DNA of 64,000 bases from assembly GCA_017555905.1 (NCBI GenBank), contig JAFZFP010000005.1, forward strand, positions 21,362-85,361. Reading direction: 5' to 3'. Positions 27,883-52,093 of this stretch are shown one piece after another. This DNA is from Alistipes sp. Lineage in GTDB: Bacteria > Bacteroidota > Bacteroidia > Bacteroidales > Rikenellaceae. Under the pieces are notes generated by a model. It was not told where the DNA came from and ran no database searches. It saw only the letters and a program-made list of their open reading frames with translations. The number at the start of each line of letters is the position of its first letter. Positions within the stretch are counted from its first letter, which is position 1. The position numbers and the translations under genes were made by a program.

Positions 27883-27890
27883 TAAATTTG
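27883..27890 (+). promoter_or_regulatory. -7 element of the putative nucleic-acid utilization operon
   Basis: TAAATTTG lies about 90 bp upstream of the large lipoprotein gene. No TTG is found at the usual -33 distance, so expression may depend on an activator or another promoter. The sequence between 27768 and 27880 is AT-rich without a gene. Confidence 0.4.
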
Positions 27891-27980
27891 CGAACTTGCT
27901 ATGCGTACGTGCGCGTATGAGTGATTTGTTGAATAAAATAGATACGGAACAAATATTTTATAATTCAAATTTTAAAAGTT

Positions 27981-30875
27981 ATGGAGAATAGATTTTTCAG
28001 ATCTCTTGTAGCCGTTGCGATGCTCCTTGGTTCTGCCTTGGGCTTTGTAGCGTGTGAGGAGGCAGGTGACGAGATCGTTGCCAACCCTACCGTAGAGGTC
28101 TCTGCTAAGACTCTCAACTTCACCGTTGAAGAGGGTAGTAAGACTCTTGACATCACAGCCAACTCGCTTTGGCGTGTGGAGAACGACATCGACTGGGTTA
28201 CCGTTACCCCTATGGCTGGTGAGGGCGATGGTAAGGTCGTTGTTGCGGTATCAATGAACGACAGCGGTGTAATGCGTGAGGCTACCTTCAAGGTATGCTC
28301 AATCCACAAGGAGTATGGCGTTTGGGAGACTCGCAAGGTTAAGGTCTCTCAGTCTGCTAACGAGGCACCTACCGTAGAAGAGGAGGTACTCTACAGCGAT
28401 AACTTCGATGGTAGAGAGGCAACTAAGGAGTATGGTAATAGCAATAGTTCTTGGCCTTATATTGACCAGTTCCCTGAGTTCGCTAACCCTACAGGTACTG
28501 CTGGTGCAAATGTAACTTATAGCGGTGCAGGTGTATCTGTTCGTGCTAACTCAACATCTAACAGTAGCTATTCGGACTACGCAGGTTCTGGTTCTAACAA
28601 CATCTTCTTCGGTGGTGGCGCATACTTCCAGATCAACAATATCACTCCATTGGAGGGTGTTAATTTCAAGGTTACTTTCGGTACCGAGAAGTACTCTCAG
28701 GATGGCGATAGCACATTCCGCCCCGAGGAGTTTATCCTATCAATCTCTAAGAATGGTACTGATTGGGCGCCTGTAGAGTACACCTACGCAGGTACTGAGC
28801 CTGGCCGTTGGAATGTGGCTACTGCTAATTTCACTTTGGCTGCTGCAACCGCGACTCTTCACATCAAGTTTGAGGCTAAGGTTGCTTCGGTTTACCGTCT
28901 CGACGATGTTAAGTTCTACACTGGTAACGGTGGCCAGACTATCGACCTCGACAATATCCAGGTTGAGACTCCAGAGCCTCCAACAACCGACGCTCTCTAC
29001 TACGATAACTTCGACGGTCAGGGCGCAGTGAAGGATGGTGAGGGCTACTGGCCATACGTCACTGACTTCCCACAGATGAAGAATGCTGCTGGTGCTGCTG
29101 CTACTAATGTAAGTTATGAGGGTTACAACGCAACCGTTCGTAACAACTCTAACTCTGATGGCTCTTACTCTGACTATGCTGGTTCGGGTGTTAATAACAT
29201 CTTCTTTGGCAAGGGTAACGCCTGGTTTATGGTTAAGGACCTAGCCCTTGAGTCTTCACAGAAGAACCTTACCTTGACCTTCGGTACTGAGAAGTACTCA
29301 CAGACTTTGGGTAGCATCTTCACCCCATCTGAGTTCCTCGTTCAGCTCTCTGCTGATGGCACCACTTGGTCTAACGTGGAGTACACCTTCGCTGGTACTG
29401 CAGAGGGTCGTTGGAATGTAGCTACTGCAAACTTCACGTTGAAGACAGTCCCTGCGAAACTCTACATCAAGTTCACAGCACTCGCTGAGAGCGCATACCG
29501 TCTCGATGACGTCACTTTGGATCTAGGCCAGGGTGGTCAGGAGATTGACCTCGCTAATGGCACTACAGAGCAGCCTGGTGGTGGTGACGAGCCAGAGAAT
29601 CCCGATCAGCCTAACGTGCCTGCAAATGGTGTTTATGAGTCAGACTCGGCGTTTGTTTGCTCATCGGATAATTCAACAAATGCTGTTTACTCTCTTAAGA
29701 ACACTACAATTGCGGGCAATGCTGTTACTGGTTTCAAGTTGGGTAAGTCAAAGCTGCAGGGTAAGTTTACCTCTGGTGCGGTAAGCGTGACTGGTACAAA
29801 GTATTTGAACTTCTACGCTGGTGCTTGGAATGGCACAACTGCTACGCTCTACGTTCGTGTTGATGGTGGCGTAGCACAGTCGGTGAATCTCGCAGGCAAT
29901 GCAGGTGCTCACGACAACGCTCCTTACACAAATCCAGAACTCTCATTTGCTGACTCTGACCACTTCTCTCTCCAGTTCGAGGGCTTGACAGAGTCTTCAA
30001 CGGTAGAGTTCTCAACAAATGCAGATTTCGCTCTTACTACACATAGCGGTCAGGCTCCAGATATCGCACCACGTGTAATCGTTTGCGGTGTTAAGCTTAC
30101 TGATGAGCCTATTGGTGCAGAGACTCCTGGTGGTGAGCCAGTAAATCCAGAGCCAGAACCAGAGCCTACCCCAGGTGAGGTTGTTGTGGCTACAGTAGCA
30201 GAGTTCTTGGCTGCTGCTGAGGGTGAAACTATTTATGAGCTTACAGGTGTGATTAAGAATGTGGCAAATACCAACTATGGTAACTTCGACCTTAAGGATG
30301 CTACTGGCACCGTCTACGTCTATGGTATTTACGACGAGGATGGCAACAAAGTCTTCACATCACTTGGCTTGAAGGAGGGAGATACACTTACTATTCGTGG
30401 TAAGCGTACCTCTTACAATGATGCTCCTCAGATGGGTAGTGGAGTCTACGTCTCTCACATTTCGGCTCCTGAGCAGGAGCAGCCAGAGAACGAGGCTACT
30501 CTATCGTTCGCAGATGCTAGCAACCGAGTTAGTTGGGATACCTCTAAGCAGGTTTGGAAGGCTAATGGTATCACATTAACCAACAACAAAGGAGCTTCAA
30601 CAAGCAATGTGGCTGATTATGTAGCACCAGCTCGTTTCTACAAGAGCTCCGAGCTTATCGTTGAGTGCGACCACGCAATCTCGAAGATCGATTTTGCCTG
30701 CAACGGTGGCTCATACGCTACAGCATTGAAGGATTCAATCACCTCAGGCAACGTGACTGTTGATGGTAGCATCGTTACCGTTACATTCTCGTCACCAGTT
30801 TCATCTTACACTATTGCGTCACTCACTGGTGGTCAGGTAAGAATGAACAGCTTGACAGTAACTTACGCTGAGTAA
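27981..30875 (+). CDS. Large multidomain surface lipoprotein (BACON, duplicated beta-sandwich module, OB-fold)
   Basis: The 964-residue protein has a lipoprotein signal with lipobox GFVAC (C25) followed by acidic residues (EEAGDE), the type of sequence that directs Bacteroidota lipoproteins to the cell surface. Next come a BACON-like domain (about 37-127), two tandem copies of a module of about 185 residues (about 136-320 and 336-515, each beginning YxDNFDG and containing SYSDYAGSG, NNIFFG, TFGTEKYSQ, GRWNVATANFTL and YRLDDV), an acidic Pro-rich linker, a third beta domain (about 550-700), an OB-fold-like domain (about 730-830, ELTGVIKNV to VYVSHI) and a C-terminal beta domain. No catalytic motif is seen; binding of a polymer is inferred. 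It heads a five-gene set with two nucleases and a TonB receptor. Confidence 0.72.
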   Translation: MENRFFRSLVAVAMLLGSALGFVACEEAGDEIVANPTVEVSAKTLNFTVEEGSKTLDITANSLWRVENDIDWVTVTPMAGEGDGKVVVAVSMNDSGVMREATFKVCSIHKEYGVWETRKVKVSQSANEAPTVEEEVLYSDNFDGREATKEYGNSNSSWPYIDQFPEFANPTGTAGANVTYSGAGVSVRANSTSNSSYSDYAGSGSNNIFFGGGAYFQINNITPLEGVNFKVTFGTEKYSQDGDSTFRPEEFILSISKNGTDWAPVEYTYAGTEPGRWNVATANFTLAAATATLHIKFEAKVASVYRLDDVKFYTGNGGQTIDLDNIQVETPEPPTTDALYYDNFDGQGAVKDGEGYWPYVTDFPQMKNAAGAAATNVSYEGYNATVRNNSNSDGSYSDYAGSGVNNIFFGKGNAWFMVKDLALESSQKNLTLTFGTEKYSQTLGSIFTPSEFLVQLSADGTTWSNVEYTFAGTAEGRWNVATANFTLKTVPAKLYIKFTALAESAYRLDDVTLDLGQGGQEIDLANGTTEQPGGGDEPENPDQPNVPANGVYESDSAFVCSSDNSTNAVYSLKNTTIAGNAVTGFKLGKSKLQGKFTSGAVSVTGTKYLNFYAGAWNGTTATLYVRVDGGVAQSVNLAGNAGAHDNAPYTNPELSFADSDHFSLQFEGLTESSTVEFSTNADFALTTHSGQAPDIAPRVIVCGVKLTDEPIGAETPGGEPVNPEPEPEPTPGEVVVATVAEFLAAAEGETIYELTGVIKNVANTNYGNFDLKDATGTVYVYGIYDEDGNKVFTSLGLKEGDTLTIRGKRTSYNDAPQMGSGVYVSHISAPEQEQPENEATLSFADASNRVSWDTSKQVWKANGITLTNNKGASTSNVADYVAPARFYKSSELIVECDHAISKIDFACNGGSYATALKDSITSGNVTVDGSIVTVTFSSPVSSYTIASLTGGQVRMNSLTVTYAE
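28380..29530 (+). repeat. Tandem duplication inside the large lipoprotein gene
   Basis: Two in-frame copies of a module of about 550 bp (about 28385-28945 and 28990-29530) share several near-identical peptides: SYSDYAGSG, NNIFFG, TFGTEKYSQ and GRWNVATANFTL. Divergence elsewhere shows the duplication is not recent. Confidence 0.75.
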
Positions 30876-30895
30876 TAAACTCTCGCCTTTTGTGA

Positions 30896-30921
30896 ACTGT
30901 GGGTGAGCAATCACCCACAGT
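30896..30921 (+). promoter_or_regulatory. Perfect hairpin with GCAA tetraloop between lipoprotein and nuclease genes
   Basis: An 11-bp perfect stem (ACTGTGGGTGA and TCACCCACAGT) closed by a GNRA-type GCAA loop lies about 20 bp after the lipoprotein stop. It is followed by CCCAAGGGGGAGG rather than a T-run, so it is not a standard terminator. It may be an mRNA-stabilising or processing element that sets different expression of the two genes. Confidence 0.55.
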
Positions 30922-30992
30922 CCCAAGGGGGAGGAGATGAAAGAGGAAAGAGAAAAGAGGAAAGGAAGATAAGATTAATCGGGAAAAAATTT

Positions 30993-32201
30993 ATGCGTAG
31001 AGCAAAGAGGATAATGTCGGTGGTTGTGAGTGCGATTTTGGTCGTGCTTATGATGGTTGGATGTGAAATTGTGCCAGTAGAGAAGATTGGTAGTAAAGCC
31101 TATATTTCGAATACGGAGATTAAGGGTGATAGTAAGAATTGCGCTGTGGTGCTTAGTGCGCAACAGGGTACGTCTTACACAATCGCCGTAGAGTCTGCGG
31201 AGGATTGGGCGCACTTCTCTAACGGTGCCACCTACATCGAGGGAACAATGGAGACTGGCGATAAGGTAGTGTATATCTATTTCGACAAGAATCCTTCGGG
31301 CCAGAGCCGTGATGCAGTGGTTGTCGTAGAGTTCTCGGATGAGGAGGTCTTCGAACTCGAATTCACACAACATAGTTACGATAGCACCATCGCCATAGAT
31401 AGGGAGTGGGCAGAGTTGCCACTCTGTAAGAACGAGGATAACTACATCTATAATACCCATTACGGCAGGATGGGTTCAAAGAGTAATGCTCGAAACTATA
31501 CCTTCTGCTTCGATCCCGACTATCGTGCATCGGTTTGGGTGGCCTATCCGCTCCATTCGTCATATACTACGGGCAGCGGTAACCGCGACTATAGTAGTTT
31601 TGGTTACGACCCTACGGTAAGCACGTCGTGTCAGGCGAATATGGGTGCTGGCTCCTATAATGGTCGCTATGATAGAGGTCACCAAATCCCTGCTGCCGAC
31701 CGCAAGTGTTCGCAGGAGATGATGGATCAGACCTTCTATGCTACGAATATGACCCCTCAGCAGGCTAACTTCAACCAGAAGAAGTGGGGTGCTTTGGAGG
31801 GCAAGGTGCGTAATATGATCTGCTCGGATACGCTCTACGTAGTTACGGGAGCATACTTCGAGGGTGAGCACCACTCATCTATTTACAAACAGACAAACGA
31901 CCGTTCGGGTAACGTATGTCCTACGCCAACATACTACTACAAGGCCTTGCTTCGCACGAAGAAGGGTAATACGGGTAAGCGTATAGACCAGATTTCGGAT
32001 GCTTCACAACTTAGGGCTATCGCCTTCTGGATGGAGCACGCCGACACGGGTAACGATACAAATATCAAGGCTACTGATTGCATTTCGGTAGCGGAACTCG
32101 AGGAGATTACCGGCTTCACATTCTTCCCGATGCTCGATGATGCCATCGAGGCAGAGGTGAAGCGTACGGCAGTGGCCTCGGAGTGGGGTATAACGCAGTA
32201 A
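30993..32201 (+). CDS. DNA/RNA non-specific endonuclease, lipoprotein with BACON-like domain
   Basis: The 402-residue protein has a lipoprotein signal (lipobox LMMVGC, C24), a BACON-like beta domain (about 35-127), and a C-terminal nuclease of the beta-beta-alpha-metal (NUC1/Serratia nuclease) family. The catalytic motif YDRGHQIPAADR is present with general base H230 in DRGH, and the metal-binding asparagine lies in the downstream NMTPQQANFNQKKW segment. Such enzymes cut DNA and RNA outside the cytoplasm using Mg2+. I chose the ATG at 30993; a longer frame from a GTG at 30903 would add 30 charged residues and start inside the hairpin. It is second in the five-gene exported cluster, followed 29 bp later by the phosphatase-family nuclease. 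Confidence 0.88.
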   Translation: MRRAKRIMSVVVSAILVVLMMVGCEIVPVEKIGSKAYISNTEIKGDSKNCAVVLSAQQGTSYTIAVESAEDWAHFSNGATYIEGTMETGDKVVYIYFDKNPSGQSRDAVVVVEFSDEEVFELEFTQHSYDSTIAIDREWAELPLCKNEDNYIYNTHYGRMGSKSNARNYTFCFDPDYRASVWVAYPLHSSYTTGSGNRDYSSFGYDPTVSTSCQANMGAGSYNGRYDRGHQIPAADRKCSQEMMDQTFYATNMTPQQANFNQKKWGALEGKVRNMICSDTLYVVTGAYFEGEHHSSIYKQTNDRSGNVCPTPTYYYKALLRTKKGNTGKRIDQISDASQLRAIAFWMEHADTGNDTNIKATDCISVAELEEITGFTFFPMLDDAIEAEVKRTAVASEWGITQ

Positions 32202-32230
32202 CGGAGTGAACGAAAACTAAATTTAACGAT

Positions 32231-33262
32231 ATGAAGAAAAATCTATTGATGCTGTGTATAGCATTATTCTCTGTAGCAACTCTTTATGCGCAGGAGAAGC
32301 CATACTCAGTAGTATTCTACAACTTAGAGAACTTGTTCGATATCTACGACGATCCCGAGACTCACGACGAGGAGTTCACACCAAACGGTATCAAGCAGTG
32401 GAACGAGATTAAGTATCAGAAGAAACTTAGCAATATGGAGCGCGTGTTGTTCGATATCGCTAAGATACAGAAGGATTACCCTATAGTAATTGGTGTGTCG
32501 GAGATTGAGAATCGCACCGTTTTGGAGGATCTCATCTCACAACCAAACCTTAAGGGAGCCAACTACCGCATCTGTCACTACGACTCACCCGATGCTCGTG
32601 GTGTGGATGTAGCGTTCCTCTATCGCTCGGATGTCTTCAAAATCGAGGGCTCGGATAATATCAAACTCGAGGTCGAGGAGTTGCCAAACTTCCGCACTCG
32701 TGACTTGGTGGTTATGTGGGGTACGATCGAGGATGAGCCATTCTACTTCCTCGTGTCGCACTGGCCATCACGCCTTGGTGGTAAGGAGGCTTCGCAGTTC
32801 AAGCGCGATGCTTGTGCAAGACAGATTCGCCAGATTAAGGACTCGCTCCTTAGAGAGAATCCTGCTACAAAGGTGATTGTTATGGGCGACTTCAACGATG
32901 ATGCTACGGATGCCAGCATTGTGAAGACTATGGGTGCTAAGGGTAAGGTTAAGGAGCTCGTCGAGGGTGACTTCTTCAACCCATACAATGCTATGTTGCG
33001 TGCGGGCCTCGGTACGTTGGCTTATCAGGATGCGTGGAACTTATTCGATAATATCTGCGTTACCGAGAATTTGGTGAATGCTAAAAGTGGCGAGTTGAAG
33101 TTGATTAAGGGCAACAAGTACTATGGTAACATCTTCACACGCCCATATATGCTTCAGCAGGAGGGTAAGTACAAGGGTTATCCATTGCGTACGTTTGTGA
33201 CCAATAACTTCCAGAATGGTTTCAGCGACCACTTCCCCGTATATATTTATATAGGTAAATAA
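32231..33262 (+). CDS. Secreted endonuclease/exonuclease/phosphatase family protein
   Basis: A cleavable signal peptide (residues 1-20, LYA-Q) precedes an EEP-fold domain. Family motifs are FYNLENLFD (N31 to D37), GVSEIENR (E91/E93), the substrate-positioning ARGVDVAFLYR, SHWPSRLGG, GDFND (219-223) and the terminal SDHFP with H334, so the DNase I-type metal site looks complete. EEP enzymes cut phosphodiester or phosphomonoester bonds in nucleic acids, lipids or inositol phosphates. The neighbouring NUC1 nuclease and OB-fold lipoproteins favour nucleic acid. No lipobox is seen, so it should be periplasmic or released. Start ATG at 32231 is supported by the signal peptide. Confidence 0.88.
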   Translation: MKKNLLMLCIALFSVATLYAQEKPYSVVFYNLENLFDIYDDPETHDEEFTPNGIKQWNEIKYQKKLSNMERVLFDIAKIQKDYPIVIGVSEIENRTVLEDLISQPNLKGANYRICHYDSPDARGVDVAFLYRSDVFKIEGSDNIKLEVEELPNFRTRDLVVMWGTIEDEPFYFLVSHWPSRLGGKEASQFKRDACARQIRQIKDSLLRENPATKVIVMGDFNDDATDASIVKTMGAKGKVKELVEGDFFNPYNAMLRAGLGTLAYQDAWNLFDNICVTENLVNAKSGELKLIKGNKYYGNIFTRPYMLQQEGKYKGYPLRTFVTNNFQNGFSDHFPVYIYIGK

Positions 33263-33279
33263 TACAAAATAGAGATAAT

Positions 33280-36207
33280 ATGAAGAGATTTTTATTAACG
33301 ATTCTTGCTATGCTCCTCGCCGTGAGTCTCTATGCGCAGACTGGCGGTATGAAGGGTGTGGTGGTCTCACGAGATGGTCGCGAGCCAATTAATGGTGTCG
33401 CCATCTTCGTAGACAATGTCGCGGTGAACACGACCACCGACTACGATGGTGAGTTCATCATCAAGGGCTTGGAGCCAGGTCAGTATCTTCTTCGCTTCGA
33501 AAGTCCCGATTTCGAGGATTTGGAGGTGATGGTACGTGTCAAGGAACTTGTCCACGATATGCAACAGGTTATTATGGTGCCAAATAGTATTGTCACTGTA
33601 GATAACTCGGCTTTCGCAGAACTCGATACCGATGTTGAGTCTGCGGGCGACTCTCAGTCGTTGCCAGGAACACTCTCGGCATCGAAGGATATCTTCAATA
33701 ACATCGCATCTTATCGCTTCTCGGAGATGCGTTTCAACGTGCGTGGTTACGACTCTCAGTATCAGGATGTCTACCTTAATGGTATTCGTTTCAACGATGC
33801 GCTCACAAGTTATGGCCCTTGGTCGTTGTGGAGCGGTTTGAATGATGCTACACGCAATCAGGAGACCACATCAGGTTTGACGATGTCGGACTATGGTCTT
33901 GGTGGCGTGGCTGGTACGACAAATATTAATGCTCGTGCTTCGCAGTTGCGTAAGGGTTTCCGTGCCAGCGTAGTTAATTCTACCCAACTCTACCGTTTCC
34001 GCGTGATGCTCAGTTACGCATCAGGTATGTTGGATAACGGCTGGTCGTATGGTTTCTCGGTCTCTACTCGTCAGGGTGGTAACGGCTATGTTGATGGCGT
34101 TTACTACAACGCTTACGGTTACTTCTTCTCGGCAGAGAAGGTGTTTAATTCTCGTCACCGCCTCTCGGCAACTATCCTTGGCGCACCAACCACACGTGGT
34201 GCCCAGCAGGCTTCAACACAGGAGGCATACAACCTTTGGGGCGACAACTACTACAACCCTAACGTAGGTATTCAGAATGGTGAGGAGCGCAACGCACGTG
34301 TACGTCGTATGCACGAGCCTATCGCTATGCTTAACTACAATTGGCAGATTGCTGAGCGCACTAACCTCTCAGTAGCAACCTCTTTGCGCTTTGGCTTCAA
34401 TGGCTACTCGGCTCTTACTTGGTATAAGGGTGAGGATCCACGTCCAGACTACTACCGTAAATTACCATCATACTATGGTGATCGCCTGGCTCGTCGTAAG
34501 CAACTCAATAACTTCGCTGATAACAACGACTTGACCCTTCCATTTACTGAAACAGACCTCGAGACCGACCGCTTGAAGTATGTCGAGTTCTTGCAGAACT
34601 GGGATGGTTATATCGACTTCGATGGATTGATTCAGGATAATATGATGGGTGAGACCAACGAGACTTATGGTAGTGGACATCGTTCTGTAGCAATGATTGA
34701 GGAGCGTCACACAGACCAACTTGACTACAACTTTGCAGCACAGATTGCTCACCACTTCCGTAATAACTCGAAACTCACTGCAGGTGTTCGTGCGCGTGTC
34801 AATCGTACGGAGTACTACAGCACTGTGAAGGATCTCCTCGGTGGTGACTACTGGTTGGACGTAGATAAGTTCGCTGAGCGCGACTTCGGTAGCAATGCCG
34901 AGGCATACCAGAATAATATGGCTTACTACAACGAACACGGTCACGCACAGGCTGTTAGAGTAGGTGATAAGTATGGCTACGACTACTACGCTCACGTTCG
35001 TCAGGGTCAGATTTGGGCTATGTACGAGATTTCGGCTGGAGGTTTCTCAGCAAATATCGGTGCTGAGGCAGGTCTTTCGTCTATGTGGCGTGAGGGTCTT
35101 TGGGAGAAGGGTCTCTTCCAAAATGCCAACGCTGGAGGCGACAGAGGAAAGACCTCGTTGGGCAACTCCGACAAGATTGAGAACTTTACATACAAGGGCA
35201 AGGTAAACCTCGCTTACCAGTTCTCTGGTGCGCACTCTATCGAGGCAAATGCTACGATTATGCAGAACGCTCCAATGTTCAACAACGCCTTCGTGTCGGC
35301 ACGTACACGTAACCAGATTACCCCTGGTTTGGATAGTGAGAAGATTTACGGTTTTGACCTTACCTACAATCTTCGTACACAGTGGATTCGTGCAAGACTC
35401 TCGGCATACTATACTCAGATGATGGATCAGTCGAAGGTTATCTCATTCTATGACGATACTCAGAACTCATTCACCAACTTCGCAATGTCGGGCATCGATA
35501 AGCGCTATATGGGTGTTGAACTTGGTTTGAGCATTCCTATTGCTTGGGGCCTCTCATTGCAGGGTGCTGTGAGCCTTGGTGACTATATCTACACCTCTAA
35601 CCCAACCTTTACTCAGATGATTGATAACAGCGCAACAGATGTTGAGCATAGCGTCGTTAAGTGGAAGGGTATGAAGGTGGAGAGTACACCTCAGACTGCT
35701 ATCAACGTAGGTCTCAACTTCCGTGGTCCAAAGAACTGGTATGCTACCGTAGATTTCAACTTCTACGACCGTCTCTACCTCTCAATGAACCCAGTATATC
35801 GTACACAGTCGCTCGAGAACGAGATCAAGCGCATCTACGATTGGGATAACTTGGAGTCGGGCCGTCAGAAGGCATACGTAGTGGGTGTTATCGAGGATAT
35901 CCGCGCACAGGAGGAGTTGGGTAAAGCCTACACCCTTAGCGCAAGCATTGGTAAGAACTGGAGCATCAAGTATAAATATACTCTTGGCTTCAGCCTTCAG
36001 GTGAACAACATCCTCAATAATCAGACTATTCGTACGGGTGGTTATGAGCAGATGCGTCTCAACAAGATTGGCGATCCGATTATCTTCCCTAATGAGGATG
36101 GCGAGATGAAGATTGTTCATAAGCCTACGACTTACTCGCGTTTCGACTCAAAGTATTTCTATATGAATGGTCTTAACTACTATCTAAATGTTTACTTTAG
36201 ATTCTAA
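33280..36207 (+). CDS. TonB-dependent receptor with N-terminal carboxypeptidase-regulatory-like domain
   Basis: The 975-residue outer-membrane receptor has a signal peptide ending YAQ (residue 20), a carboxypeptidase-regulatory-like beta domain (about 22-105, starting MKGVVVSRDG and containing TDYDGEFIIKGLEPGQY), a plug domain (about 125-230, with RFNVRGYDSQYQDVYLNGIRFND) and a large barrel ending NYYLNVYFRF. The domain order is that of SusC-like transporters, but no susD gene is adjacent; DUF5689-like and OB-fold lipoproteins are present instead. It sits 17 bp after the secreted phosphatase-family nuclease, so I infer that it imports the products of the neighbouring nucleases (oligonucleotides, nucleotides or phosphate-rich fragments). 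Confidence 0.9.
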   Translation: MKRFLLTILAMLLAVSLYAQTGGMKGVVVSRDGREPINGVAIFVDNVAVNTTTDYDGEFIIKGLEPGQYLLRFESPDFEDLEVMVRVKELVHDMQQVIMVPNSIVTVDNSAFAELDTDVESAGDSQSLPGTLSASKDIFNNIASYRFSEMRFNVRGYDSQYQDVYLNGIRFNDALTSYGPWSLWSGLNDATRNQETTSGLTMSDYGLGGVAGTTNINARASQLRKGFRASVVNSTQLYRFRVMLSYASGMLDNGWSYGFSVSTRQGGNGYVDGVYYNAYGYFFSAEKVFNSRHRLSATILGAPTTRGAQQASTQEAYNLWGDNYYNPNVGIQNGEERNARVRRMHEPIAMLNYNWQIAERTNLSVATSLRFGFNGYSALTWYKGEDPRPDYYRKLPSYYGDRLARRKQLNNFADNNDLTLPFTETDLETDRLKYVEFLQNWDGYIDFDGLIQDNMMGETNETYGSGHRSVAMIEERHTDQLDYNFAAQIAHHFRNNSKLTAGVRARVNRTEYYSTVKDLLGGDYWLDVDKFAERDFGSNAEAYQNNMAYYNEHGHAQAVRVGDKYGYDYYAHVRQGQIWAMYEISAGGFSANIGAEAGLSSMWREGLWEKGLFQNANAGGDRGKTSLGNSDKIENFTYKGKVNLAYQFSGAHSIEANATIMQNAPMFNNAFVSARTRNQITPGLDSEKIYGFDLTYNLRTQWIRARLSAYYTQMMDQSKVISFYDDTQNSFTNFAMSGIDKRYMGVELGLSIPIAWGLSLQGAVSLGDYIYTSNPTFTQMIDNSATDVEHSVVKWKGMKVESTPQTAINVGLNFRGPKNWYATVDFNFYDRLYLSMNPVYRTQSLENEIKRIYDWDNLESGRQKAYVVGVIEDIRAQEELGKAYTLSASIGKNWSIKYKYTLGFSLQVNNILNNQTIRTGGYEQMRLNKIGDPIIFPNEDGEMKIVHKPTTYSRFDSKYFYMNGLNYYLNVYFRF

Positions 36208-36226
36208 CGGTTAAATGAGTGATTTT

Positions 36227-37555
36227 ATGAAACTAAATAGATTATTTTTATTTATCGCATTGGCGGTGTTTACCGTAGGATGCTACGAAGAGCATACGAT
36301 GGTAGGCCCTCGTAAGGTTTACGACGACCAGTCATACGAGGAGAAGTTCCCTGCTGCATTGCGTATCTCTATTGCGGAGTTGAAGTATGCCTTTGGCGAG
36401 ATTAGCAATACGGGTGTTAATAGCGGTTGGAGTAACACCATCTACAAACTTATTGGAGATGATATCTTCCCTAATGAGGATGTATATATCAAGGGTAAGG
36501 TTATCTCTGACGACGAGGAGGGTAACGTATATAAGTCGCTCTTCATTCAGGATGAGACCTCGGGTATCGAGATTAAGTTGAACAACAACGTAGGTGTTCG
36601 TTATAAGAAGGGTACTTGGGTATATGTACGTCTCAAGGGCCTCTACTTGGGTAACTACCGAATGATGCTCTCGTTGGGTGCTGAGCCATCGGAGTCTTGG
36701 AATAAGGCTGGTGAGCATAAGTACTATGCTAACTCTAATATCGAGTTGCAGGAGATTATCGACAAGCACGTCTTCCCAGGTGGCCCTGTTGAAGGTGGCT
36801 TGAAGGTGGGTACCTACGAGCAGTGGAAGAGTGATCCAACAAGTGTTGATATCATCACCGTAACCCTAGAGAACTACGAGGAGGTATTTAGCCCAGAGAT
36901 TATTAAACTAGAAGGTAAGGTTTGGGGTGATAAGCGAGACGAGAATTGGGGTAGTTTGAGTGGTGATAATACCAAGAGGTTTGAGATTAAGCAGCGCGAA
37001 ATTATGTTCGGCCGTTTGATGCGCTTCGAAGGCTTGCAGTGCCACTATGCAGGTGTCAAGAACCAGAATGGTGAGACTCGACCAGGCTTGAAGAGTGGCT
37101 CATTCGAGAATATCTACCCAAGTTGGTTGTATACCGATGTGCGCCCAACTGTCTCTAAGCCTTGGTATCACTGGGCATACAAGGATGATAAGGGTCGTAG
37201 CCTCTATGGATCGGTACTCTTTACCTATAACCCTGATGCTACCGTATGCTCTGAGAATGGTGTATATGCTTTGCGTACAAGTGGTTACTCTCGTTTCGTG
37301 CGTCGCAACGTATGTAAGGATGGCGAGAAGGCTACCATTATAGCCATCTATGGCATCTATGCTCAGCGTTCTGACTATGCTGGCAACGCCAACGACTACG
37401 CATCATACCAGCTCACTATCAGCAGCTTCTCCGACATTGAGTTCGAGAATGGCGAGGATGCCTTGCTTAGCGATGAGCAGGTGGCCGAACTCACTACCGA
37501 GGATATGGCGATAGTGCCTTGGATTGATGAAGAGGGTGAATCTGAGATTCAGTAA
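36227..37555 (+). CDS. DUF5689-like OB-fold lipoprotein
   Basis: The 442-residue protein has a lipoprotein signal (lipobox FTVGC) followed by YEEH. An N-terminal region with a conserved ISIAELK segment leads into an OB-fold-like domain (VYIKGKVISDDEEGNVYKSL, FIQDETSGIEIKLNN, VYVRLKGLYLGNY), characteristic of DUF5689. The C-terminal half holds a second beta-rich domain ending in an acidic tail. OB folds often bind nucleic acids or glycans, so a surface capture role for the adjacent receptor is plausible. The gene follows the receptor by about 20 bp and ends the operon at a strong terminator. An ATG four codons upstream (36215) is an alternative start; I prefer 36227 because it gives a canonical MKLNR signal peptide. 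Confidence 0.75.
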   Translation: MKLNRLFLFIALAVFTVGCYEEHTMVGPRKVYDDQSYEEKFPAALRISIAELKYAFGEISNTGVNSGWSNTIYKLIGDDIFPNEDVYIKGKVISDDEEGNVYKSLFIQDETSGIEIKLNNNVGVRYKKGTWVYVRLKGLYLGNYRMMLSLGAEPSESWNKAGEHKYYANSNIELQEIIDKHVFPGGPVEGGLKVGTYEQWKSDPTSVDIITVTLENYEEVFSPEIIKLEGKVWGDKRDENWGSLSGDNTKRFEIKQREIMFGRLMRFEGLQCHYAGVKNQNGETRPGLKSGSFENIYPSWLYTDVRPTVSKPWYHWAYKDDKGRSLYGSVLFTYNPDATVCSENGVYALRTSGYSRFVRRNVCKDGEKATIIAIYGIYAQRSDYAGNANDYASYQLTISSFSDIEFENGEDALLSDEQVAELTTEDMAIVPWIDEEGESEIQ

Positions 37556-37568
37556 TTTAATAATGAAA

Positions 37569-37612
37569 ATAGATGGTGTCCAACAATGTGTGGACACCAT
37601 CTCTTATTTTTA
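37569..37612. terminator. Bidirectional terminator at the end of the exported cluster
   Basis: A perfect 12-bp stem (AGATGGTGTCCA and TGGACACCATCT) with an 8-nt loop is followed by CTTATTTTTA. A-rich sequence on the other side serves the converging ABC-F gene, which ends at 37618. Confidence 0.85.
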
Positions 37613-52021: not shown

Positions 52022-52093
52022 GGCTCCGTAGTTCAATGGATAGAATTTAAGATTCCGGTTCTTACGATGAAGGTTCGAATCCTTTCGGAGTCA
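52022..52093 (+). tRNA. tRNA-Arg (anticodon CCG)
   Basis: A 72-nt cloverleaf folds cleanly by eye: acceptor GGCTCCG with CGGAGTC (one G-U pair), D stem GTTC/GAAT (one G-U) with GG in the 8-nt loop, anticodon stem TAAGA/TCTTA with loop TTCCGGT giving anticodon CCG (decodes CGG), a 4-nt variable region, T stem GAAGG/CCTTT with loop TTCGAAT, and discriminator A at 52093. The CCA end is not encoded. A terminator follows. Confidence 0.93.

Follow-up and report, generated by a model that had tools for sequence, protein, structure and literature searches.

A five-gene row of Alistipes sp. that probably encodes a TonB-linked DNA importer, with homologues of transformation genes of Riemerella anatipestifer

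The window analysed in this study is a stretch of 64,000 nucleotides from Alistipes sp. (contig JAFZFP010000005.1, positions 21,362 to 85,361), in which five closely spaced open reading frames (ORFs) for exported proteins occupy positions 27981-37555 on the plus strand. We believe that this row probably encodes a TonB-linked importer of DNA in the outer membrane, with scavenging as its probable main use and transformation as a possible further use. As judged from alignments and gene order, its receptor (gene 4), its DUF5689 lipoprotein (gene 5) and its EEP-family nuclease (gene 3) have homologues in Riemerella anatipestifer, where the three genes form a contiguous trio. This reading is carried by the homology and synteny of the two loci, by nuclease motifs that are intact and by the linkage of the trio across the class; the passage of DNA through this barrel and the fate of that DNA are what we infer.

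In the proposed mechanism, lipoproteins 5 and 1 would hold DNA over the receptor at the cell surface, and nuclease 2 would cut it outside. The receptor would then move DNA through the outer membrane using TonB energy, the EEP nuclease would degrade it in the periplasm for the use of nucleosides and phosphate, and uncut strands could pass to ComEC. Because two nucleases would lie on the transcript, we consider scavenging the probable main use in this genus.

Homologues in Riemerella anatipestifer

Natural transformation of R. anatipestifer has been studied by a transposon screen (PMC8459023), the one article naming DUF5689 among the open-licence papers searched. Markerless deletion of RA0C_RS04915, the gene of a carboxypeptidase-regulatory-like outer-membrane protein (PF13620), brought transformation below detection, and so did markerless deletion of RA0C_RS04920, which encodes a protein with DUF5689 and DUF5017 (PMC8459023). 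The transforming DNA was longer than 1 kb, being made up of two flanks of about 620 bp and a resistance cassette, and the authors call their own model, a receptor that imports double-stranded DNA, speculative (PMC8459023). Homologues of RS04915 were reported only in Flavobacteriaceae (PMC8459023), and the need for a receptor and DUF5689 protein of this kind in transformation has been published for Riemerella only.

Because of this phenotype, we regard DNA as the likely substrate of the window row and DNA of more than 1 kb as a possible cargo. The initial annotation, which was made from the letters of the window, had proposed that nucleic acid is captured and imported with the help of TonB, and the phenotype of the Riemerella homologues supports this. 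It had also taken oligonucleotides or phosphate-rich fragments as the default cargo, which is not supported, since the pair in Riemerella is needed for transformation by DNA of this length.

The published pair was matched to the locus L114 (genus g204) because gene order and domain content fit. This locus runs from recA through dinB, three succinate dehydrogenase (sdh) genes, comEC and two further genes to the EEP gene, the receptor and the DUF5689 gene, where recA, dinB and sdh were named by eye and the other four by Pfam. At five per gene, the order fits the published tags of RecA (RS04870), ComEC (RS04895), the receptor (RS04915) and the DUF5689 protein (RS04920). We take it as the convention that locus tags step by five per gene, in which case the EEP gene would be RS04910 by counting. 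The domains are also as published, namely PF13620, DUF5689 and DUF5017 (the last with 23.6 bits, below the cut-off of 28.8). In R. anatipestifer CCUG25054, the receptor is 93% identical to that of L114, with the same neighbours from a ComEC-like ORF to the DUF5689 gene.

The receptors of the window and L114 align over their full length (E 2e-110), and their EEP proteins share 41% identity (E 2e-75). The two DUF5689 proteins align in a short core (E 2e-9), and a profile built without Riemerella gives 163 bits for this match.

Distribution and conservation of the locus

Receptors of this kind, called type A here, form a discrete family. A profile made from the window receptor and 16 relatives found a full-length match above 600 bits in 64 of 392 genomes of the phylum; the match in genomes G282 and G167 was split into two pieces, neither above 400 bits, and everything else listed was partial and weaker (at most 400 bits). 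Of 197 genomes in the family of genome G341, 191 have the receptor and 192 have ComEC. A tree of 84 receptors was built by a quick method, using 23 of 27 receptors from the genus and 11 of 12 from the rest of the order. Here the Riemerella receptor groups with the type A receptors on one fork (support 80), and a paralogue stands apart; long outgroup branches and unlike amino-acid composition in many rows were flagged. The receptors of L101 and L105, both from family f26, nest within those of the window's genus in this tree, which hints at transfer between families.

Gene 5 stands beside the type A receptor in 27 of 27 same-genus loci, 12 of 12 other loci of the order and 26 of 28 other loci of the class, and the first two counts lean upward because loci were picked from DUF5689 matches (25 of the 27, the remaining two being the window and L201, which came from a receptor match; 8 of the 12). 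The counts of genes 2 and 3 do not lean in this way. Of the same-genus loci, 26 of 27 have an EEP gene beside the receptor, as do 10 of 12 in the order and 23 of 28 in the class. A PF01223 nuclease like that of gene 2 is near in 26 of 27, 5 of 12 and 0 of 28 loci, respectively, the last count being for a distance of 15 kb. As a control, loci of the paralogous receptor (type B) were read, and neither EEP nor PF01223 was found in any of 17. The EEP gene has the direction of the receptor in the 26 same-genus loci and diverges from it in the 23 class loci that have it. Conservation of gene order in relatives had been named beforehand as a check on the locus, and the counts around the receptor bear it out.

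By profile and synteny, the trio occurs in the window's order and also in several families that belong to other orders of the class. Read most simply, these distributions suggest that the core trio is old and that the PF01223 nuclease and the large lipoprotein of gene 1 are additions in part of the order.

Outside the order, 61 receptor matches were obtained, 59 of them whole and 2 in pieces; the class loci are 27 of these together with L114. Left out of the neighbourhood count were L058-L060, L065-L067 and L071, which have no type A receptor there, as well as L115 and L116 (genus g204) and the type B locus L197, whose receptor was missed by the ORF caller; the type A receptor of G037 lies on another contig and stands outside the count. 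Some gaps coincide with broken contigs: the same-genus locus L070, without genes 2 and 3, is cut, and L055 and L061 of the order lack EEP at contig ends. Class loci without EEP are L085 (contig-cut), L095, L099, L109 and L113, and those without gene 5 are L095 and L112. By genome, a type A receptor was found in 27 of 37 members of the genus (one contig-cut), and a piece at a contig edge in one more.

The type B receptor (about 805-880 aa where whole, matching in the barrel region only) is present in 35 of the 37 same-genus genomes. The copy of the source genome (G000:C16:26591-28525; L102:8589-11048, minus strand) lies about 5 kb from dprA, and a pair of DUF5689 genes was seen 2-12 kb from the type B receptor in 8 of the 17 loci read (L184-L200). 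We considered this paralogue as the better counterpart of the Riemerella receptor and rejected it: the one protein scanned had no Pfam match at E 0.01, no EEP neighbour was found in the 17 loci, and the paralogue falls outside the type A fork.

Nucleases and surface proteins of the row

Gene 2 (30990..32201, plus strand) encodes a DNA/RNA non-specific endonuclease (Endonuclease_NS, PF01223, E 9.5e-42), for which the ATG at 30990 looks a likelier start than the alternative GTG at 30903. The active-site residues R, G, H, N, N and E are kept in 23 of 23 rows, row L103 having been dropped beforehand, but the D of the DRGH motif is kept in only 12 of the 23. A NUC1-type nuclease with the DRGH motif had been proposed for this gene; the family and the RGH, N and E residues stand, and the D is not general. 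Its description as a lipoprotein fits the lipobox pattern of the window protein, but the pattern was found in only 11 of 24 gene-2 rows. (All lipobox calls in this study come from a simple pattern.) By sequence, gene 2 has many clear relatives of solved structure, including EndoG, EXOG and bacterial extracellular nucleases.

Gene 3 (32231..33262, plus strand), whose homologue stands beside the published pair in Riemerella, encodes an exported EEP-family protein (Exo_endo_phos_3, PF19580, E 4.8e-112). All 15 positions checked are intact, each being kept in at least 53 of 55 rows (53 to 55), in agreement with the complete metal-site motifs noted at the outset. Because the window protein has no lipobox cysteine and the Pfam match reaches its last residue, we place it in the periplasm, which is its probable location; a candidate lipobox cysteine was seen in 6 of 54 EEP rows. 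The secreted phosphodiesterase of the initial annotation is thus upheld as an exported EEP enzyme, but probably one of the periplasm and not of the outside. Its sole NCBIfam match is a weak one to the ExeM/NucH DNase family (25 bits, cut-off 300), and relatives of solved structure were found by sequence at chance level only.

Gene 1 (27981..30875, plus strand) encodes the 964-aa lipoprotein, for which the BACON domain and the duplication noted earlier were recovered as a Pfam match and as DNA self-matches of 69-70%; a further match to F5/8-C is marginal. The homologue in the same-genus locus L034 has a DUF5689 domain in its C-terminal part. Gene 1 was found at 20 of 27 same-genus loci with a weak profile, and some of the misses are contig ends. 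One relative of solved structure was found by sequence, a GH16 chain over the BACON end (E 2.6e-4).

Gene 4 (33280..36207, plus strand), the homologue of RA0C_RS04915, encodes a TonB-dependent receptor-like barrel with a CarboxypepD_reg match, and gene 5 (36215..37555, plus strand), directly downstream, encodes the DUF5689 lipoprotein (E 1.7e-26) homologous to RA0C_RS04920, so both domain assignments made from the letters agree with Pfam. No relatives of solved structure were found by sequence for either protein. The lipobox cysteine is present in 52 of 61 gene-5 rows, with an acidic residue within four residues after it in 47 of the 52; the corresponding figures for gene 1 are 19 of 20 and 19 of 19. 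We assume that these acidic residues resemble the surface-export signals of Bacteroidota, and lipoproteins 1 and 5 are accordingly predicted to lie on the cell surface.

A locus organised like a polysaccharide utilisation locus (PUL) for another phosphodiester polymer or a lipid, in which the EEP enzyme would act specifically on lipids or inositol phosphates, could also be imagined. Glycan binding is common among BACON and F5/8-C-like domains, and lipid and inositol phosphatases are found within the EEP superfamily. Nevertheless, we consider this very improbable, given that a PF01223 nuclease with intact catalytic residues is present in 26 of 27 same-genus loci, that NCBIfam links the EEP protein, if weakly, to a DNase family and to nothing else, and that no SusD or glycoside hydrolase domain occurs among the five genes.

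Scavenging and transformation

A purely nutritional locus would cut DNA or RNA outside the cell and import only fragments, and its homology with the Riemerella genes would reflect a shared ancestor with changed use. The two nucleases in the row speak for such a locus, and the relatives of gene 2 with solved structures and the weak DNase match of the EEP protein point the same way. So do G038, which has the trio but no ComEC that could be detected, and G044, where a stop interrupts the ComEC match. Studies have shown that Bacteroidota (Lutibacter) take up carbon from extracellular DNA (PMC8289736) and that depletion of inorganic phosphate in Flavobacterium johnsoniae induces SusCD-like clusters and extracellular nucleases (PMC8115612). 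However, transformation of Riemerella by DNA of more than 1 kb depends on its homologues of both the receptor and the DUF5689 protein. The EEP gene adjoins the pair in Riemerella too, and for this reason a nuclease neighbour alone is no mark of changed use. The flanking genes, named by eye, resemble ruvB and an ABC-F ATPase and not phosphate or nucleoside genes. We therefore regard a purely nutritional role as rather doubtful.

At the other extreme stands a dedicated competence operon, in which gene 2 would be an entry nuclease passing a strand to ComEC and digestion would be incidental. EndA, the entry nuclease of the pneumococcus, is a member of the nuclease superfamily that also includes gene 2. 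The essential role of the Riemerella pair speaks for this possibility, as does the gene content of the source genome, which has ComEC, DprA, NamZ (PF07075, the family of Riemerella RS09020) and a 360-aa candidate HhH protein with four HhH_3 matches, two of them above the cut-off. By their domains, these are the kinds of gene essential in Riemerella. ComEC was also matched in 60 of 61 relatives; as a discriminating test its presence was discarded as uninformative, since nearly all genomes have it. The absence of the receptor from part of the genus, the ComEC findings in G038 and G044 and the sub-threshold ComF, all given below, speak against such an operon, which we consider unlikely.

In the genus g204, three of the six genomes listed have ComEC at a distance of about 4.4 kb from the receptor, and G483 and G531 have the two on different contigs; the place of ComEC in G452 is missing from the listing. 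The ComEC open frames measure 420-578 aa in the 37 same-genus genomes; among the 23 other genomes of the order in which ComEC was matched, 14 have frames of 650-771 aa.

Several observations weigh against the DNA importer that we prefer, or against its part in transformation. Nine of the 37 same-genus genomes, four of them at least 92% complete, have no receptor, although all 37 have a ComEC match. The same-order genome G038 (99% complete) carries the trio (L062) with no ComEC detected, and G044 carries genes 2 to 5 (L064) with one TGA stop in its ComEC match; together with the nine genomes, these cases argue against a purely competence role. ComF reaches only 20.8 bits in the source genome, against a cut-off of 27. 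The receptor of the window is only 28% identical to that of Riemerella, and its Plug match is below the cut-off (18.2 and 23.9 bits). The surface placement of gene 2 is unsure in view of its lipobox counts. RS04910, the EEP gene, is absent from the 20 transformation genes listed in the available text of PMC8459023, where its single mention is as an upstream gene with unchanged transcription. Finally, the literature searched contained no assay of binding, nuclease activity or transport for a protein of the window. With these points taken into account, we still hold that the row probably encodes an outer-membrane DNA importer serving mainly the scavenging of DNA.

For the class as a whole, we would tentatively suggest, with rather less confidence, that the route of DNA across the outer membrane is a dedicated TonB-dependent receptor with its DUF5689 lipoprotein and not a pilus and secretin. 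Some lineages, including this genus, may have gained a second nuclease and a large binding lipoprotein and so turned the importer into an operon for feeding on DNA; eating and acquiring DNA would then share one gate. The spread of the trio makes the way in which DNA crosses the outer membrane of transformable Bacteroidota testable in laboratory strains, and the nuclease-linked trio could connect the turnover of extracellular DNA with gene uptake in this phylum.

Promoter, leader and terminator

Genes 2 to 5 are separated by gaps of 29, 17 and 7 bases, and the five genes are presumably co-transcribed. A -7-like promoter element, TAAATTTG, lies exactly at 27883..27890 on the plus strand. A terminator-like stem of 12 pairs, found on either strand, occupies 37571..37602 in the space that separates gene 5 from the convergent ORF downstream. 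The arrangement first noted, five same-strand exported genes between a -7 element and a strong terminator, was located in all its parts. Sites like the -7 element are enriched in the window (62, compared with a mean of 32 in shuffles).

A hairpin is predicted at 27894..27922 (plus strand), just 3' of the -7 element. Directly after the element, 14 of 15 leaders, which are related to one another and not independent, fold at -9.6 kcal/mol or below; comparison folds at the 62 -7-like sites of the window have a median of -7.3 kcal/mol, and at least 12 of them reach -10.8. In the leaders of related operons (L034-L073), the pairing is kept with different letters, giving stems of the ATATCTC, TACCCC and TGCGCG kinds. 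Conservation of the hairpin is weakened by L036, which has none, and by the strict stem of the window itself, which has 4 pairs; the leaders of L048, L064, L101 and L105 have no -7-like site or weak stems only. No known RNA family was found in the leader, and an Rfam scan of the whole window at gathering scores gave only a tRNA at 52022-52093.

Comparison with known systems

The initial annotation had described the locus as built like a PUL. A PUL of the SusCD type likewise combines exported lipoproteins, a TonB-dependent receptor and degradative enzymes in one gene row, but the window row has no SusD, no SusC/RagA match and no glycoside hydrolase. None of the five proteins matches a SusD model of Pfam at E up to 1, and the receptor has no SusC/RagA match at E up to 1 in NCBIfam, which we take to include such a model. 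Membership among PULs was thus rejected on the Pfam and NCBIfam results, and the description does not hold as a matter of composition. By its logic of binding, cutting and importing, the locus still works like a PUL.

The Pus system of F. johnsoniae has a similar PUL-like logic for phosphorus-rich compounds, and extracellular nucleases are raised there under depletion of phosphate (PMC8115612). It differs in that PusCD is SusCD-like and the nucleases EndA1 and EndA2 are orphans of another family, pf04231 (PMC8115612).

That no characterised system has this composition, as first stated, holds for the exact five genes in the literature searched and not for the core pair, which is already known from one study in one species; within what was found, the five-gene form with its nucleases and the spread to the order of the window appear to be new. 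Among the open-licence literature matches listed, there was neither a follow-up on the Riemerella pair nor a paper on the five-gene set.

The Riemerella pair is the likeness on which we rely most. A homologous receptor and DUF5689 protein are adjacent in the same order in both cases, with a homologous EEP nuclease alongside. In Riemerella, however, the EEP gene is divergent and no PF01223 nuclease was found nearby. The Riemerella DUF5689 protein also has a DUF5017 tail, whereas the Pfam scan gave no DUF5017 match in that of the window; the tail is an accessory feature, and its loss leaves the pair intact.

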